NCBI GenBank assembly: GCA_025924435.1
Contig: JAICIL010000196.1
Location: forward strand, 1 to 8,402
Direction of reading: 5' to 3'
DNA: 8,402 bases
From: Chloroflexia bacterium
GTDB taxonomy: Bacteria > Chloroflexota > Chloroflexia > Thermomicrobiales > JALYUS01
Both the position numbers and the translations under genes were made by a program. This document shows, in pieces, positions 2,321-8,394 of this stretch (positions are counted from its first letter, which is position 1; each line of letters opens with the position of its first letter). The notes under the pieces were generated by a model. That model was not told the origin of the DNA, searched no databases, and saw only the letters and a program-made list of their open reading frames with translations.

Positions 2321-4627
2321 CTATTGCCCCCCGCGCAGCCGCACGACATAGACGGAGCGCCCGAAGGTGCTGAGATAGAGCGACGCGCCGCGCGCGCTGA
2401 CGAAGCGCAGGTCCGCGCAGTGCGGGTTGCGCGGCAGTCCCATGGACGCCTGCTGCCAGGTGATGCCATCGTCCCGGCTGATGTAGACGCGGTCGTCCGT
2501 GGAGGCGACGAGCGCGTGCGGCACGCGGGTGCCCGGCTCCGCGACCGTCTCGAGGCCGAAGAGCGGCGTCTGCGGCAGGCCCATCCCCGACGTCACCACC
2601 CAGTGCAGCTCGTCGAGCCGCAGCACATAGTACGAGGTGATCGTCGTCTTCTTGCCCGTGATCGGATTCGTCGTCGTCGCCGTCGCGCCGTTCATCATGG
2701 CGAAGAAGTCCGTCTCGGAGAAGGCGACGATCCGGTTCACCTGCCCGCCCGTCACGGTCGCGGACGGCGAGGGCTTCGGCAGGACGACGGGGAGTTCCAG
2801 CGCGCTGCCCTGCTTCGTGTCCACGGCGAACATCCGCCCGTTCCCGGTGCCGACGTGGATCGTGCCGCCGTGGAACGACCCAAGCCCGGCGATCGAGACG
2901 CCCGCCGGTAGGGTCGCGATCAGTTCCCAGTGATACGTCCCCGCCGGGTTGCTGTCGGGGTAGCAGCCGTACACCTGATTGCCCAGCCCGCACGCCGCGT
3001 AGAGCGTCTGCCCCGCCGCGTTGCGGTAGGAGGGACGCCGCACCGCGTCCCCGACCGGGCCGGCCACCCCGCCCGGATCGGTGGGCGGCTGCCCGACCGG
3101 CACGACGCCGAGATCGGTGACCGTCGGCCCCGGCGCGACGCGCGCGGCGCCGACGGCGGTGCCCATGATGTTGTGGAGCAGGCCGCCGTCCGCCATGAAG
3201 GCGGTCCAGCCGCCGTCCCCGCCGTCGAACTGCACCCAGGGCGTCGGGGTGGGATCCACCTGGCAGGCGATGTTGCCGTTGTCCTGCACGCCGCTGGCGA
3301 TCAGCCCCGCCTGCGCGGCGGAGGCGGAGAGGGTGCCGTAGAACTGCCGGGCGACGTACGTGGCGTAGCACTGGTGCGTCGGCAGCAGGCGATTGTAGTT
3401 GCTCTGGTACGGCTGCCCCGTCAGGCCGAGATAATCGTCGAGGTTGACGCGCATCACGCCGCCGTCGCTGCATACGTAGAGGTTGTGGACGTTGCCGGGG
3501 GTGTTGGGCCAGAAACGCAGGGCGTGGGTATCCGCGTGGAGATGCGTGCGGTCGGTGATGCGCTTGAAGGTCTTGCCGCCGTCGAGCGTCAGGAACGGCC
3601 CCTCCTGCCAGCCGAGCGCCGCCATGCCGGGGTTCGTCGGGGCGGCGGCGATGCAGTTGTTCCAGTTCCCGCCCTGATCGCCCGCTTCCACCGGGACGAT
3701 GGCGAGCGGGCTGCTCTCGCCCTCGACGTGCGACGCGCAGAAGCGCCACTGCCGCCCACCGTCCTCGGAGCGCACGATCGAGTTGAGGCGACCGTCCGGC
3801 CAGGCGCACGCGGCGTAGAGCACGGTCGGGCGCACCTCGCACGACGAGACGGAGGTCGTGCCGCAACTGTCGAAGACGAGCGCGGTCGCGTCCGTGCCGT
3901 CGTCGAAGGAGACGACGGCGCGCTTCAGGACGAGGTCGCCCGCGCTGTCCCACTGGCCGACGAAGATGCCGCCCTTCCCGAACCCGCCCGCCACGACGGT
4001 GATGACGCGGCGGTCCTCCAGGTCGGAGCGCGCCTGCCGCGCCCGCGTCGCGCCGATGGCGACATCCCAGAAGCCCTGATCCGCCGCCCCCTCGACGTTC
4101 GCCCGTTTCCAGTCGTACGGCGGGCGCGGCGCGGGCTTAGGGCCGAAGGGGAGGAGGCAGCCGCGCTTCTGGCGCGAGGGCGGGATCGTCGCCCAATATA
4201 GGCCGCCGTCGCACGCGGCGAGGATGCGGCGCAGGTTGCGGATGACGACGATGCGGTGGACATCGCCCGCGTCGCCGGGCAGCGGGTTCGCCACCGGTAG
4301 CCAGGCGAGGAGCGGCACGTTGTCGCCGAGGTCCGTCTCGCGGATGATGCCGCCCGTGCAACCGGCGAAGAAATGGGCGGCGGGGTCGTCCGGGCCGGGG
4401 GCGAGGCAGTTGACATCCGGGTTGGGCCAACTGTCGGAGAGCGGTAGGGTCGCGCCCGTCGTGGCGACGGTCCAGACGCCGCCCTTCTCGGTGGCGACGA
4501 GCAGGCCGCCCGAATCGAGTTCGAGCACGTCGGTCGCATGGCCGGAGTGCCACGCATCCGCCGCCTCATCCATCTGGATGCCGAACGGGTTTGCCAGTGT
4601 CCAGCGGATCGTCGGATCGTCAGCCAT
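2321..4627 (-). CDS. BNR/Asp-box beta-propeller protein (sialidase/Vps10-like fold), function unknown
   Basis: The 768-residue protein is built from propeller blades. Asp-box motifs (S-x-D-x-G-x-x-W/F) are seen at about residues 287-294 (RSEDGGRQW), 347-354 (TLDGGKTF) and 717-724 (SRDDGITW). A degenerate one lies at 45-52 (ATEKGGVW). It ends with a closing strand, LYLSTFGRSVYVVRL, as in sortilin/sialidase-like propellers. Its length allows two propellers. No catalytic sialidase signature was recognised, so enzyme activity should not be assumed. ATG 4627 is chosen because AGGGAGGG lies five bases upstream; a TTG at 4648 is less likely. There is no signal peptide or membrane segment, yet about fifteen cysteines are present, which is unusual for a cytoplasmic propeller. 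The gene appears to be monocistronic. A weak -10 (TATCGT, 4682-4687 on the minus strand) would give a leader of about 48 nt. Confidence 0.8.
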   Translation of the reverse strand: MADDPTIRWTLANPFGIQMDEAADAWHSGHATDVLELDSGGLLVATEKGGVWTVATTGATLPLSDSWPNPDVNCLAPGPDDPAAHFFAGCTGGIIRETDLGDNVPLLAWLPVANPLPGDAGDVHRIVVIRNLRRILAACDGGLYWATIPPSRQKRGCLLPFGPKPAPRPPYDWKRANVEGAADQGFWDVAIGATRARQARSDLEDRRVITVVAGGFGKGGIFVGQWDSAGDLVLKRAVVSFDDGTDATALVFDSCGTTSVSSCEVRPTVLYAACAWPDGRLNSIVRSEDGGRQWRFCASHVEGESSPLAIVPVEAGDQGGNWNNCIAAAPTNPGMAALGWQEGPFLTLDGGKTFKRITDRTHLHADTHALRFWPNTPGNVHNLYVCSDGGVMRVNLDDYLGLTGQPYQSNYNRLLPTHQCYATYVARQFYGTLSASAAQAGLIASGVQDNGNIACQVDPTPTPWVQFDGGDGGWTAFMADGGLLHNIMGTAVGAARVAPGPTVTDLGVVPVGQPPTDPGGVAGPVGDAVRRPSYRNAAGQTLYAACGLGNQVYGCYPDSNPAGTYHWELIATLPAGVSIAGLGSFHGGTIHVGTGNGRMFAVDTKQGSALELPVVLPKPSPSATVTGGQVNRIVAFSETDFFAMMNGATATTTNPITGKKTTITSYYVLRLDELHWVVTSGMGLPQTPLFGLETVAEPGTRVPHALVASTDDRVYISRDDGITWQQASMGLPRNPHCADLRFVSARGASLYLSTFGRSVYVVRLRGGQ

Positions 4628-4798
4628 CCCCACCCTCCCTGCTCGCAATCATGCGGCACGTCGGCATCGCCGCATCCATGCACGATAGAACGTACCCGAG
4701 GCGCCCATAGTTACACCGCGACACCGCGCACGCCGGATTGGAACGTGTCTTGCGAGAGCGTCCCATTTCTCATTATGGTTGTCATACAAGGAAAAAGG

Positions 4799-4874
4799 TG
4801 GTGCCGAGGGGCGGAATCGAACCGCCGACACTACGATTTTCAGTCGTATGCTCTACCGACTGAGCTACCTCGGC
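4799..4874 (-). tRNA. tRNA-Phe (GAA)
   Basis: The minus strand folds as a complete cloverleaf. The acceptor is GCCGAGG paired with CCTCGGC, followed by T8-A9 and the D-arm GCTC-AGTCGGTA-GAGC. The anticodon stem is TACGA/TCGTA around the loop CTGAAAA, and the T-arm is GGCGG-TTCGATT-CCGCC. Discriminator A and a genomically encoded CCA (4799-4801) complete it. The anticodon GAA occupies 4839-4841. A TTTTT run follows directly downstream (minus strand) and may help termination. No second tRNA is adjacent. Confidence 0.98.
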
Positions 4875-4889
4875 ACTGAGGCGAACTGC

Positions 4890-4918
4890 ATCCTACGCGG
4901 GCGGGCCGTTTCTGTCAA
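4890..4918 (-). promoter_or_regulatory. Promoter of tRNA-Phe
   Basis: On the minus strand a perfect -35 hexamer TTGACA (4913-4918) is followed by exactly 17 bp and the -10 hexamer TAGGAT (4890-4895). Transcription would start near 4883, about nine bases before the mature tRNA 5' end at 4874. This is the best housekeeping-sigma promoter match in the window. Confidence 0.78.
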
Positions 4919-4923
4919 GACGA

Positions 4924-5003
4924 GTAGTCGGTAGACAGTAGCCAGTAGTCAGAAAGGCACTATTTCGCCAGCCACTATCTACTGACTACTGTCTACCGAC
5001 TAC
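4924..5003. repeat. Inverted repeat made of degenerate 7-bp heptads
   Basis: The left arm (4924-4952) is four tandem heptads: tagtcgg, tagacag, tagccag, tagtcag. The right arm (4975-5003) is their near-exact reverse complement: ctatcta, ctgacta, ctgtcta, ccgacta. The paired arms differ at about three or four positions, and the 22-nt centre is unique. It lies between the tRNA-Phe promoter and the aldolase gene. The heptad tagacag/ctgtcta also occurs at 6479-6492 and 6574-6601. It resembles the short tandem heptanucleotide repeats described in cyanobacteria in style, though relatedness is not implied. Confidence 0.88.
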
Positions 5004-5023
5004 CCATCGCGCGTCGCTCCCGG

Positions 5024-5029
5024 TATGAT
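5024..5029 (+). promoter_or_regulatory. Putative -10 element for the aldolase gene
   Basis: TATGAT matches the -10 consensus at five of six positions. It would start transcription near 5036, giving a leader of about 48 nt before ATG 5084. No recognisable -35 lies 16-18 bp upstream, where the tail of the heptad inverted repeat is found. Confidence 0.45.
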
Positions 5030-5083
5030 GGCGGCGGTTTGCCGGATGGATGGACAAATGAAATCGTGGGAAGGGGATACGGC

Positions 5084-5848
5084 ATGCGCGAGAACGCGAT
5101 CAAGGCGAAGATGCTCCGGGGCGAGGCGGTGATCGGGCCGTTCCTGCCGCTCCCGTCGCCGATGGTGATGGAGCTGACGGCGTTCGCGGGGATGGACTTC
5201 GGCATCATTGACTGCGAGCACGGCTTCATTGATTACGAGGGCGTCTACCCGATGGTGCTCGCCGCCGAGGCGCGCGGCATGACCGCCATCGCCCGCTGCC
5301 CCGTGCGCGACCCGCAGTTCATCCTGCGTTACCTCGACCTCGGCGTGCAGGGCCTGCATGTGCCGCAGATCAACACGAAGGACGAGGCGGAGGCGTTCGT
5401 GCAGGCATGCCGCTACCAGCCGCGCGGCTGGCGGGGCAGCGCCTCCCCGCGCGCCAGCGACTACGGCAACAGCGGCATGAGCATGTACGACGCGATGCAA
5501 TTCCTCAACCGCGAGGTGCTCACGATCGCCCACATCGAGAATCCGCGCGCCGTGGACAACCTCGAGGAAATCTGCGAAGTCGAGGGGCTGGACGTCCTCT
5601 TCGTCGGGCGCGGCGACATGAGCCACGCGCTCGGCGTCCCCAACCAGTTCGATCACCCCTCCGTCCAGGAGCAGATGCGGCGCGTCGCCGAGAAGAGCAA
5701 GGGGAGCGGCAAAATCCTCGGCACCGTCGTGCGCGACGCGGCGCAGGCGCGCGAGGCGATCGAGATGGGCTTCCTCTACATCGCCTGCGGCTTCGCGGGC
5801 TTCGTCGTCGGCGGCATGAAGCAGTTCCTCGCGGAGACGCGCAAGTAG
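5084..5848 (+). CDS. HpcH/HpaI-family class II aldolase (2-keto-3-deoxy-aldarate aldolase-like)
   Basis: This is a metal-dependent aldolase of the phosphoenolpyruvate/pyruvate superfamily. Family members reversibly split 2-keto-3-deoxy acids to pyruvate and an aldehyde in the cytoplasm. The 254 residues equal the usual length. Visible motifs are DFGIIDCEHGFIDYE, with the conserved EHG histidine at 46, and IARCP, with the conserved arginine at 71. DLGVQGLHVPQINTKDEAE and YQPRGWRG follow. The metal ligands are Glu152 (AHIENPRAVDNL) and Asp178 (VGRGDMSHALG). The usual GPxDLS segment reads GRGDMS here, so substrate contacts may differ. ATG 5084 is chosen because GGAAGGGG (5069-5076) lies seven bases upstream; an upstream TTG at 5039 would add a non-homologous stretch. 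No partner genes for aromatic or sugar-acid breakdown are present, so the substrate is open. Confidence 0.95.
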   Translation: MRENAIKAKMLRGEAVIGPFLPLPSPMVMELTAFAGMDFGIIDCEHGFIDYEGVYPMVLAAEARGMTAIARCPVRDPQFILRYLDLGVQGLHVPQINTKDEAEAFVQACRYQPRGWRGSASPRASDYGNSGMSMYDAMQFLNREVLTIAHIENPRAVDNLEEICEVEGLDVLFVGRGDMSHALGVPNQFDHPSVQEQMRRVAEKSKGSGKILGTVVRDAAQAREAIEMGFLYIACGFAGFVVGGMKQFLAETRK

Positions 5849-5934
5849 ACATAATGCATCGCCTGTGGGATACTGCGGCCCGCGACGGACGGGGCGTGCG
5901 GGTATGTCCGTACACGAGGACCGGGGAAGTTTGC

Positions 5935-5940
5935 TACACT
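5935..5940 (+). promoter_or_regulatory. Putative -10 element for the lipoprotein/transport pair
   Basis: TACACT matches the -10 consensus at four of six positions and is followed by ggcggc, as is the -10 of the aldolase gene. A start near 5947 would give a 51-nt leader to ATG 5998, or a leaderless message if ATG 5947 is used. There is no clear -35. Confidence 0.35.
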
Positions 5941-5997
5941 GGCGGCATGGAGAGCGTGCGGCGCGTGCGGCAAATGGGAAGAGGAGTGTGCGCAGGG

Positions 5998-6474
5998 ATG
6001 TCCGCATGGTTGCGACGCGCGACGGCGCGATGGGCGCGGTGGGCTTGCATCCCGTTGCTGGCGGCGCCGCTCCTCCTCGCGGCCTGCGGGAAGGATCGGG
6101 GCGACACCGGGGCGGTCGTCATCATCACGCCCGCGCCGCCGACGCCGACCAGCGTCGCGCGCAGCCTGACGCCGCCGCCCACCCTGCCGCCCTCCACGGC
6201 GGTCGCGTTCCCGTCGAACGCGCCGACGATCACGAATGCGACGGGCAGCCAACTGATCGCGGGTGTGAAGGCGAAGGTGAAGGACAGCGCGGACGGCCTC
6301 GTCTTGCGCGAATCCCCCTCCACGAAAGCGAAGCCGCTGGAATCGCTCGCCGCCGGCACGCAGTTGAACGTCCTCGCCGACCCGCAGGAGGCCGAGGGGC
6401 GGACGTGGGTGAAAGTCGGCCACGGCGGCAATCAGGGCTACGTCGCCGCAGAGTTTATCGAGCGGGTGCAGTGA
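5998..6474 (+). CDS. Lipoprotein with C-terminal bacterial SH3 domain
   Basis: The protein is exported and lipid-anchored, with a ligand- or wall-binding SH3 domain. The N-terminus has an arginine-rich segment, then CIPLLAAPLLLAAC with a clear lipobox (LAAC, lipidated Cys30). A Pro/Thr-rich linker follows, at about residues 43-80 (TPAPPTPTS, TPPPTLPPS). The SH3 domain occupies about 88-156, with the hallmarks LVLRESPSTKAKPLESLAAGT, WVKVGHGGNQGYVAAEFI. This fold often binds cell-wall peptide or proteins in secreted factors; no catalytic domain is attached here. ATG 5998 has GAGGAG eleven bases upstream. ATG 5947 and 5974 are in frame but lack a ribosome binding site; from 5947 the protein would be 175 residues. 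The gene ends 34 bp before the solute-binding protein, so co-transcription is likely. Confidence 0.85.
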   Translation: MSAWLRRATARWARWACIPLLAAPLLLAACGKDRGDTGAVVIITPAPPTPTSVARSLTPPPTLPPSTAVAFPSNAPTITNATGSQLIAGVKAKVKDSADGLVLRESPSTKAKPLESLAAGTQLNVLADPQEAEGRTWVKVGHGGNQGYVAAEFIERVQ

Positions 6475-6475
6475 G

Positions 6476-6492
6476 CAGTAGACAGTAGACAG
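6476..6492 (+). repeat. Two tandem tagacag heptads, inverted relative to those in the next gene
   Basis: tagacag occurs at 6479-6485 and 6486-6492, directly after the SH3 lipoprotein stop codon. The 17-nt stretch 6476-6492 is the exact reverse complement of 6574-6590 inside the signal peptide of the downstream gene. The start codon and ribosome binding site of that gene lie between them. Confidence 0.92.
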
Positions 6493-6508
6493 TGGAGAAA
6501 GTATCGGG

Positions 6509-8335
6509 ATGGCAGACGTGGACAAGAAACAGCATGTGGACAGTGTGACGACGCGATGGCGGGTCGCCCGTTTCTGTCTACTGTCTACTGTCTACTGTCT
6601 ACTCCTCCCGCTGCTCGCGGCATGCGGCGGATCGAAATCGCCCGCCGCGCCGAATGCCAGCGCGCCGCCCGTCGGTGTGTCGCCGCCCGCCGCTGTGCGG
6701 GTCGCGCCGACCGGGGTGGCCGCGACACAGGTTCCGGGCGTGCCGCCCGCGCCGAGCGTCGCGCCCGGCCCGGCGTCGTCGCCGCCCGCCAACCCGAACG
6801 ATCCGGCGGCGGGCATCACCGAGGTCGGCACGGCGGATGCGCGGACGCTCAACCCGATCCTGATCGCCGACCCGACCTCGCTCGCGCTCTCGCGGCTTTT
6901 CTTCAGCGGCCTCGTCAACCTCAACCCGAAGGACGGCACGCCGACGCCCGATCTCGCCGAAGCGTGGACCGTCTCGGACGACGGCCTGACCTACACCTTC
7001 ACGCTGCGCCCCAAGGTGCAGTGGAGCGACAGCCAGGCGCTGACGGCGGACGATATCGCCTTCTCCTACAACCTCTACCTGAACCGCGACGCCAACTCGC
7101 CGCGCTACAACACGGCCTACGCGGTGGTCGAGAGCGTGACGACGGTCAATGACCATACCGTCCGCTTCAAACTGCGGCTGCCGACGGCCAGTTTCCTCAC
7201 CGATGTCGCGACCTTCGGCATCGTGCCGCAGCACAGCCTCGTCAACACCCAACCGGCGGACCTCGCCGCGAGCGACTTCGGCACGACGAGCAACATCGTC
7301 GGCACCGGCCCCTTCCGGATGGTGCGCTGGCTGCGCTCCGAGCGGATCGAGGCGGACGCCAACCCGCAGTATCACCTCGGCCCGGTCGCGTCCCTGCACT
7401 ACACGTACATCGTCCTGCCGACCGACGACGCCGTGCGCGACGCGCTGGCGACCGGCAAGGCGGACTTCGGCGTCGTCTCTCCCGCCGTGCGGAAGGGTCT
7501 CGCGAACACGCCGGGCGTCAAACTGACGACGTACGACACCTACGACATGACCTATGTCGGCCTGCAACTCGATGCCACCAAACCCGCGAGCAGGTTCTTC
7601 GGCGATGCCAACATCCGCAAGGCGCTGATGCTCGCGCTCGACCGCGACGCGATGCTCCAGAGCGCGCGGAGCGGCGTCGGCATCGTCGCGGACGGCGTGC
7701 AGCCGCCGCCCTCGTGGGCGTACACGCCGGTGGAGCCGCGCTACCGGCAGAATCTCGACGAGGCGAAGCGGCTCCTCGACGCGGCGGGCTGGAAGGCCGG
7801 CGCGGACGGCATCCGGGTGAAGGATCGCCAGACGTTTTCGTTCACGCTCGCCACGAACTCCAGCGACCCGATCCGCGAAGCCTACGCCGGGTTGCTGCGC
7901 GATGCGTGGGCGAAAGTCGGCGTCAATGTCACGATCGCCTCCGAGAAGTGGGCGACCTTCGTGGATCGCGTGACGCGGACGCACGATTTCGACGCCTTCG
8001 TCGCCAGTTACGCCGGCAATGTGGACCCGGACGTCTCGTCGCTCTTCTCGATTGACGCGGCGAAGACGGGCCTCAACGCCGGGCGCTATCTCAATACCGA
8101 TGTGGACGGCATGCTCAGCAAAGCGCGCGGCATCTACAAACCGGAGCAGCAGGCCGAGCGCAAGGATTTGTACACGAAGATCCAGCAGCGCGTCATGACC
8201 GATCTGCCGATCTTGCCGCTCGACTTCTCGAAAGAGACCGTCGCCGTGCGCGATCGTGTGAAGGGTTTCGATGCCTCCGCCAACGATCTCGGCCTCCGCT
8301 TCCGCGCCCTCGCGTATACGTGGAGCGTGGGGTAG
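6509..8335 (+). CDS. ABC transporter substrate-binding lipoprotein, family 5 (peptide/nickel/oligosaccharide type)
   Basis: This 608-residue extracytoplasmic binding protein delivers oligopeptides or similar ligands to an ABC importer. The signal peptide has Arg/Lys in the n-region, the core FCLLSTVYCLLLPLLAAC and a lipobox Cys39. A Pro/Ala/Val-rich linker runs to about residue 100. The family 5 fold then follows, with TLNPILIADPTSLALSRLFF, PDLAEAWTVSDDGLTYTF, TADDIAFSYNLY and GTGPFRMVRW. The C-terminal lobe has NIRKALMLALDRDAML, AKRLLDAAGW and the late motif LPILPLDF. ATG 6509 has GGAGAA (6494-6499) about nine bases upstream; GTG 6545 would also give a signal peptide. The signal core is encoded by four tandem 7-bp repeats (6574-6601), so copy-number change would frameshift the gene. 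The ligand cannot be told from sequence. Permease and ATPase genes should follow to the right. Confidence 0.96.
   Translation: MADVDKKQHVDSVTTRWRVARFCLLSTVYCLLLPLLAACGGSKSPAAPNASAPPVGVSPPAAVRVAPTGVAATQVPGVPPAPSVAPGPASSPPANPNDPAAGITEVGTADARTLNPILIADPTSLALSRLFFSGLVNLNPKDGTPTPDLAEAWTVSDDGLTYTFTLRPKVQWSDSQALTADDIAFSYNLYLNRDANSPRYNTAYAVVESVTTVNDHTVRFKLRLPTASFLTDVATFGIVPQHSLVNTQPADLAASDFGTTSNIVGTGPFRMVRWLRSERIEADANPQYHLGPVASLHYTYIVLPTDDAVRDALATGKADFGVVSPAVRKGLANTPGVKLTTYDTYDMTYVGLQLDATKPASRFFGDANIRKALMLALDRDAMLQSARSGVGIVADGVQPPPSWAYTPVEPRYRQNLDEAKRLLDAAGWKAGADGIRVKDRQTFSFTLATNSSDPIREAYAGLLRDAWAKVGVNVTIASEKWATFVDRVTRTHDFDAFVASYAGNVDPDVSSLFSIDAAKTGLNAGRYLNTDVDGMLSKARGIYKPEQQAERKDLYTKIQQRVMTDLPILPLDFSKETVAVRDRVKGFDASANDLGLRFRALAYTWSVG
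6574..6601 (+). repeat. Four tandem ctgtcta heptads inside the signal peptide
   Basis: Perfect copies lie at 6574-6580, 6581-6587, 6588-6594 and 6595-6601, followed by the related ctcctcc. Three copies (21 bp) equal seven codons and encode LSTVYCL. The array is thus translated as the hydrophobic core (residues 22-31) of the binding-protein signal peptide. Confidence 0.97.
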
Positions 8336-8347
8336 GACTGAGGACTG
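8334..8347 (+). repeat. Two tandem aggactg heptads at the end of the binding-protein gene
   Basis: aggactg is repeated at 8334-8340 and 8341-8347, overlapping the stop codon (8333-8335). On the other strand it reads cagtcct, which shares the CAGT core and 7-bp period of the other heptads. Two copies only, so relatedness is uncertain. Confidence 0.6.
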
Positions 8348-8394
8348 AGTGAGACGCGGGACTCTGCTTCCATTCAATTGAAAGGCGAAATTAC

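Follow-up and report, generated by a model that had tools for sequence, protein, structure and literature searches.

Inverted heptad repeats at the start of a solute-binding lipoprotein gene in a Chloroflexia bacterium

A heptad array in the signal peptide and its inverted partner

The window, the whole stretch of DNA analyzed here, comprises positions 1–8,402 of contig JAICIL010000196.1 of a Chloroflexia bacterium (assembly GCA_025924435.1). The last of its genes, on the plus strand at 6509–8335, encodes a 608-residue solute-binding lipoprotein of an ATP-binding cassette (ABC) transporter (SBP_bac_5, PF00496, E 6.2e-77), and a tandem array of the heptad CTGTCTA lies within the signal peptide of this protein. 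The lipoprotein signal peptide occupies 6509–6625 on the plus strand and ends in the lipobox LAAC, with the codon for Cys39 at 6623–6625, as placed by alignment and a frame check. The array itself spans 6574–6603 (plus strand) and encodes CLLSTVYCLL, the h-region. Tandem Repeats Finder (TRF) gives it 4.3 copies with 100% matches and a score of 60, the top of 23 rows for the window, confirming the four perfect copies that an earlier sequence-only reading had counted. That reading also took the array for the hydrophobic core of a lipoprotein signal, and the orthologs bear this out. L36, A38, and Cys39 are invariant in 25 aligned sequences, which were selected for full N-termini and include the window's own protein, and several orthologs use tandem heptads at this position. 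Because 7 and 3 have no common factor, a tandem heptad yields the same cyclic seven-residue peptide in all frames. For CTGTCTA this peptide is LSTVYCL. Its hydropathy of 1.64 exceeds that of 91% of the 1612 stop-free heptads; read from the other strand, the repeat runs into a stop.

The array does not stand alone but forms the right arm of a pair of inverted heptad repeats, which the first reading had overlooked. The left arm, at 6476–6493 on the plus strand, consists of 2.6 copies of CAGTAGA (AGTAGAC units, the reverse complement of the right arm) and begins one base past the stop codon of the upstream gene, ahead of ATG 6509. Positions 6476–6493 pair with 6580–6597 in a perfect 18-nt stem. 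The whole element covers 6476–6603 on the plus strand, and its loop of about 80 nt holds a Shine-Dalgarno (SD)-like site, the start codon, and the n-region; the hairpin is located where an SH3-domain lipoprotein gene meets the solute-binding lipoprotein gene. Folded as RNA, 6476–6603 has a z-score of -4.58, and none of 200 shuffles was equally stable. The SD-like site, GGAGAAAG (6494–6501, plus strand), was found by eye 7 nt ahead of ATG 6509; it is unpaired in the centroid structure and partly paired in the minimum-energy structure.

The heptads recur within the window. Allowing up to two mismatches, the 14-mer CTGTCTACTGTCTA matches ten times, where 200 dinucleotide shuffles give an expectation of 0.00. 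Three of the ten matches are in the array and seven lie elsewhere, at 6479–6492 (minus strand), 4925–4952 (three, minus strand), and 4975–5002 (three, plus strand). A second inverted heptad element, built of AGTAGTC/AGTAGAC units and with no strand assigned, occupies 4918–5003 between a tRNA-Phe gene and the HpcH/HpaI gene; its perfect stem pairs 4924–4941 with 4986–5003, and its z-score is -9.95. Finally, TRF finds 2.3 copies of AGGACTG at 8334–8349 (plus strand), overlapping the stop codon of the binding-protein gene.

Heptad units in the closest relative and in orthologous proteins

A scan of species genomes returned 15 loci, one of which is close. This locus, L001, comes from a metagenome-assembled genome (MAG), G001, labelled Chloroflexia bacterium. 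Its binding protein is 91% identical to that of the window, and the DNA is 84% identical over window positions 4770–8349. At the start of the binding-protein gene the layout is kept with another unit, 2.4 copies of AAGTAAC at 5077–5093 and four of TGTTACT at 5113–5140, and the resulting AAGTAAC/GTTACTT hairpin has a z-score of -5.17. When set in the best register, the stems of window and relative differ at 6 of 16 positions (9 to 14 in the other registers), and all 16 are paired in both. The site between tRNA-Phe and the HpcH gene carries a more degenerate, AGTTCGG-type hairpin in L001 (z -3.84). In the same place at the 3' end of the gene, AGGACTG is repeated 3.9 times in L001 (6868–6894) versus 2.3 times in the window. 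Judged by this alignment, the two loci share three heptad sites, and the unit appears to differ in both arms at two of them. Within L001 5052–5160 the binding-protein frame is open upstream as far as TTG 5052. Two database proteins whose first residues match the L001 locus, P0004 and P0005, start past the lipobox and are likely start mis-calls.

The protein orthologs widen the comparison for the coding arm. Among 38 orthologs, we used the 26 with a complete N-terminus up to a lipobox-like cysteine and excluded the 12 without one. Ten of the 26 contain a stretch of 7 to 12 residues that one perfect tandem heptad could encode. Stretches of at least 7 residues occurred in 0 of 420 mature segments, in 0 of 48 distant binding proteins (of 82), and in 11 of 5200 shuffles. 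The implied units, each of which is one possible encoding read back from protein sequence, include ACTGTCT (P0001, P0002, P0008, P0010), ACTTGTT (P0014, P0023), ATTGCTC (P0013), ACTCGTT (P0015), CCTGCTG (P0036), and AGCAGTC (P0028); the match in P0028 sits in the n-region and not in the core. The ten are not independent, as P0001 is the window's protein and P0002 is nearly identical to it. P0011 scored low because the pattern ended at an earlier cysteine. The distant orthologs P0031–P0035 have no heptad-encodable stretch, and period-7 arrays are absent from the 136,634 bp of sequence at 28 loci of distant relatives, so the heptad-built signal looks derived within the clade. With residues 15–56 as the query, four proteins were returned at E <=10, namely the window's own, P0002, P0008, and P0011. 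The use of ATG 6509 is supported by similar n-regions in P0002, P0009, and P0011; the start of P0008 corresponds to window GTG 6545.

A gene for an ABC ATPase in G001 (locus L122) has the same layout: a left arm, a loop, an ATG, and an in-frame right arm that reads MSLSPQSSVLSP, with a z-score of -7.22. Its 20 homologs (E <=1e-200) vary at this point. Five have MSLSPQSSVLSP, one has a variant (P0126), five start MSFVLEARG without MSLSPQSSVLSP, seven have other short starts, and two are fragments. This variation suggests that a heptad stretch can be gained or lost at protein starts even without a signal peptide. At the other end, these homologs (P0121–P0140) often finish in a brief tail that resembles a translated heptad (VDSRQ or AMSNEQ, for example), as though stop codons too came from the arms.

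A dispersed family of heptad arrays

The heptad hairpin family, seen three times in the window, is spread through the G001 genome. Our survey of this fragmented, incomplete MAG covered 100 contigs and 764,611 of about 4.4 million bases, and found 52 period-7 arrays, compared with 0 to 9 arrays each for the remaining periods in the range 3 to 21. Of the 52, 27 have an inverted partner (>=12 nt) no more than 200 bp away, against a mean of 2.5 and a maximum of 8 in 100 trials in which flanks were swapped between contigs. Widening the flanks to 250 bp raises the count to 28, and a direct partner was found for none of the 52. By a simple call of open reading frames (ORFs), 34 arrays are intergenic (outside ORFs of at least 150 aa), seven are N-terminal, five C-terminal, and six internal. 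A stem-first search of G001 gave 50 inverted repeats, and period 7 was the best period in 21 of them. The loops of at least 25 nt in ten of these 21 heptad hairpins, the shorter ones being left out of the comparison, do not match one another at E 0.001. In 17 of the 21, with one tie, the purine-richer arm is the 5' one (sign test p 0.007, post hoc). We do not claim a fixed arm polarity, as 19 of the 29 other inverted repeats show the same.

The units are diverse between loci (ACTGAGG, ACTACTG, AACTCCG, and others). We translated 12 units, hand-picked from those already observed. In ten, the complement of the strand listed first has no stop, and five of these ten have a hydropathy above 1. Within the class, 158 genomes were searched for three copies of AGGACTG and 10 have them, G001 included. 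Three copies of CTGTCTA are present in one of 400 genomes of the phylum, a sample from a larger number (G350, with a 13-nt inverted partner). A scan of viral contigs gave 56 pattern matches, none confirmed as a relative. In G022 and G035 the reversed control of the AGGACTG pattern matches 62+45 and 17+15 times, which points to an abundance of another heptad, GTCAGGA, in both. Long arrays of mixed heptad units occur in L161 of genome G067 at 1445–1633 (nearly 190 bp) and 2114–2199, with no inverted partners in our test.

The other genes of the window encode an FGE-sulfatase-domain protein, a luciferase-like monooxygenase, the HpcH/HpaI aldolase, and the SH3-domain protein, which has a lipoprotein-like start. 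The tRNA-Phe (GAA) gene adjoining the second hairpin lies at 4799–4874 on the minus strand, and at gathering thresholds Rfam matches nothing beyond this tRNA in the window and L001. A 775-aa protein on the minus strand (2321–4648) has no Pfam match at E 0.001. The window also contains a perfect 29-nt inverted repeat of the CCTAACCCC/CCCTTCCC type at 37–65 and 67–95, with a 1-nt spacer, and another inverted repeat rich in CCCTTCCCG at 1136–1158 and 1217–1239, perhaps another dispersed element.

Origin of the array and related repeats

In the explanation that we consider probable, a dispersed heptad hairpin supplied the array as its 3' arm, this arm was captured as the core of a signal peptide, and the unit has turned over in both arms. 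The left arm lies in the leader, the loop carries the SD-like site and the start codon, and the right arm is read as codons. The stop-free hydrophobic peptide LSTVYCL may be adequate as a signal-peptide core, so that such an arm could be captured as an h-region and would then be held in frame by the lipobox and the mature protein. In the one pair of loci compared as DNA, the unit has been replaced in both arms with the hairpin and the hydrophobicity persisting; the protein orthologs add variety in the coding arm only. The replacement might have come about by slippage within an arm and copying between arms, or by repeated replacement of the element.

Several observations weigh against this account. 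There is a single DNA ortholog, and in it one site shows clearly that both arms changed their unit; the tRNA site does so less clearly, the L001 arms there matching a period of 7 at 15 of 28 and 9 of 17 positions. In G001, 25 of the 52 arrays lack an inverted partner in the 12-nt test. Of the nine other class genomes with AGGACTG, only G091 and G127 have a partner of at least 12 nt at the loci examined, and none was found at the examined loci of G005, G052, G067, G071, G100, G142, and G146. As partners are rarer elsewhere, inverted pairing is not a general rule for heptad arrays of the class, though it is marked in G001 and the window. The two commonest families in G001, AGGACTG and AGTAGTC, are hydrophobic on neither strand: the highest hydropathy for AGGACTG is 0.07, and AGTAGTC meets stops whichever strand is read. 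AGTTCGG is hydrophilic. Among the orthologs, 16 of 26 lack a 7-residue heptad stretch (8 reach 6 residues and 8 have none), and a heptad is thus not required for the signal. Moreover, the sole transposase family tested as a means of heptad spread, PF01797, was not found in the incomplete G001.

The sequence-only reading had proposed a contingency locus in which slippage toggles the gene between ATG 6509 at four copies, a second start at three, and an off state at five. Its frame arithmetic is exact when recomputed for 1 to 8 copies, and the unit length is not a multiple of 3 within a coding region, as in phase-variable loci. At four copies ATG 6509 is in frame with LLAAC; three copies bring ATG 6556 (6556–6558, plus strand), out of frame at four, into frame to read MAGRPFLSTVYCLLLPLLAAC; and at five copies there is no usable start, since the third frame has a TGA at 6546 and then no ATG, GTG, or TTG before the array. 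Neither ATG 6509 nor ATG 6556 reads into the body of the protein at copy numbers of two, five, or eight. Four perfect copies could slip, and the AGGACTG array past the stop codon does differ in copy number between the window and L001. Phase variation by heptad number also exists, as in hmw1A of H. influenzae, where a 7-bp tandem repeat lies beside a surface-protein gene. That repeat lies in the promoter region, with demonstrated variation and copy numbers of 11 to 24, and is described in the available part of the source with no mention of an inverted partner (PMC8262952). The array here has only four copies, belongs to a family that is mostly outside ORFs of at least 150 aa, and has no SD-like sequence, by eye, upstream of ATG 6556. 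In addition, P0002 (98% identical) has an N-terminus identical to the window's, P0008 (85%) keeps the ten-residue stretch at the same distance to the cysteine, and P0011 has a stretch of the same length with altered residues. The length of the coding stretch does differ in P0009, which is three residues shorter, and in P0010, which has seven residues of the stretch and one residue more to the cysteine. These copy numbers are inferred from proteins that the database selects for being in frame, making frameshifted alleles hard to detect; P0003 and P0006 have predicted starts at the lipobox, and these, like the starts of P0004 and P0005 past it, leave room for such alleles to escape protein databases. 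With an inverted partner and a dispersed family in evidence, we rejected a lone contingency repeat as the principal explanation, and the copy-number switch, which the data do not support, seems to us improbable.

A function of the hairpin in the message is an unlikely explanation, though it deserves more weight than the switch. The stem, spanning the start region, would be a selected mRNA element that controls how stable the binding-protein message is or how well it is translated. The stable folds in both the window and L001, the preservation of pairing despite the six changed stem positions, and the similar leader hairpin at the ABC ATPase gene are all consistent with this. However, inverted heptad pairs also occur in intergenic positions where the loop contains no start codon, as at 4918–5003; pairing therefore looks like a property of the family for which local selection is unneeded. 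The SD-like site is also free in the centroid structure, though not wholly so at minimum energy. A mobile origin, with a non-autonomous element resembling REPINs moved by a Y1 (RAYT) transposase, is less likely still. REPINs are described as dispersed inverted REP doublets with predicted hairpins (Bertels and Rainey 2011, PMC3116915), and the partnered arrays and the 21 heptad hairpins of G001, many of them intergenic, are likewise dispersed doublets capable of forming hairpins. However, REP doublets are not tandem heptads and are tied to RAYT transposases according to that source, and PF01797 was absent from the one genome searched, the fragmented G001 (the control was positive in 5 of 14 known genomes), so we do not identify the element as a REPIN. 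The longer loops, moreover, lack any mutual match, and the unit varies between loci. Chance or an assembly artefact is the explanation we find hardest to credit. The contig is metagenome-like, but the identical N-terminus of P0002 comes from a separate database protein, and the zero shuffle expectation for CTGTCTACTGTCTA together with the period-7 excess in G001 led us to reject chance.

In cyanobacteria, the short tandemly repeated repetitive (STRR) heptanucleotides are a precedent for several heptad units dispersed within one genome. We know of no STRR that serves as a signal peptide or has exchanged its unit in both arms. Three heptanucleotides are mentioned for Calothrix in a study of G-rich heptads in Xanthomonas and Nostoc (Rehm 2015, PMC4692102). 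Those heptads are similar in being genome-wide, with a preference for four units and over-representation in non-coding DNA, but they carry G-tracts and can form G-quadruplexes (PMC4692102), whereas CTGTCTA/TAGACAG has no GGG run, which excludes that class here. The TAACTGA heptamers of Beggiatoaceae, Cyanobacteria, and Bacteroidetes come closer. These tandem heptads are scattered, for the most part between genes and in many cases close to a start codon, and have stops throughout one strand and an open frame (LSVISYQ) on the other; insertions are mainly at protein ends, one of them at the very start of a corrinoid ABC permease (MacGregor 2015, PMC4679880). G001 likewise has a period-7 excess that is mainly intergenic, but its listed units are not TAACTGA. 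Compared with that account (PMC4679880), there are many units here, about half of the G001 arrays are paired in inverted orientation, and the open strand provides a lipoprotein signal core. In our analysis, the element thus resembles the dispersed heptads at protein ends (PMC4679880) and differs from them by its inverted-paired arms and by the use of the open arm as an export signal. Borg tandem repeats are also fast-evolving and lie between genes or are read as protein; in Borg proteins they commonly give rise to disordered regions, and signal peptides are not mentioned in the part of that source available (PMC9879509). Among the matches listed, a literature search that mostly did not cover subscription papers gave nothing on Chloroflexota heptad hairpins or heptad-built signal peptides.

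A more tentative extension of the capture of a hairpin arm as a signal-peptide core, which we put forward as possible and no more, is that heptad hairpins renew themselves in place. Slippage would homogenize each arm, copying across the hairpin would keep the arms matched, and the unit could drift to a new heptad with the hairpin intact; at gene starts this would generate interchangeable signal cores that work in any frame. For annotation, our results advise caution with starts called close to heptad arrays, which may be wrong, as seemingly in P0004 and P0005. The paired arms would offer a compact test bed for the joint change of repeat arms and for the origin of dispersed heptads. More generally, one strand of some units (CTGTCTA, GTTACTT) encodes a hydrophobic peptide without stops, as suits an export signal, and the locus may illustrate a simple route from repeat DNA to a working part of a protein.
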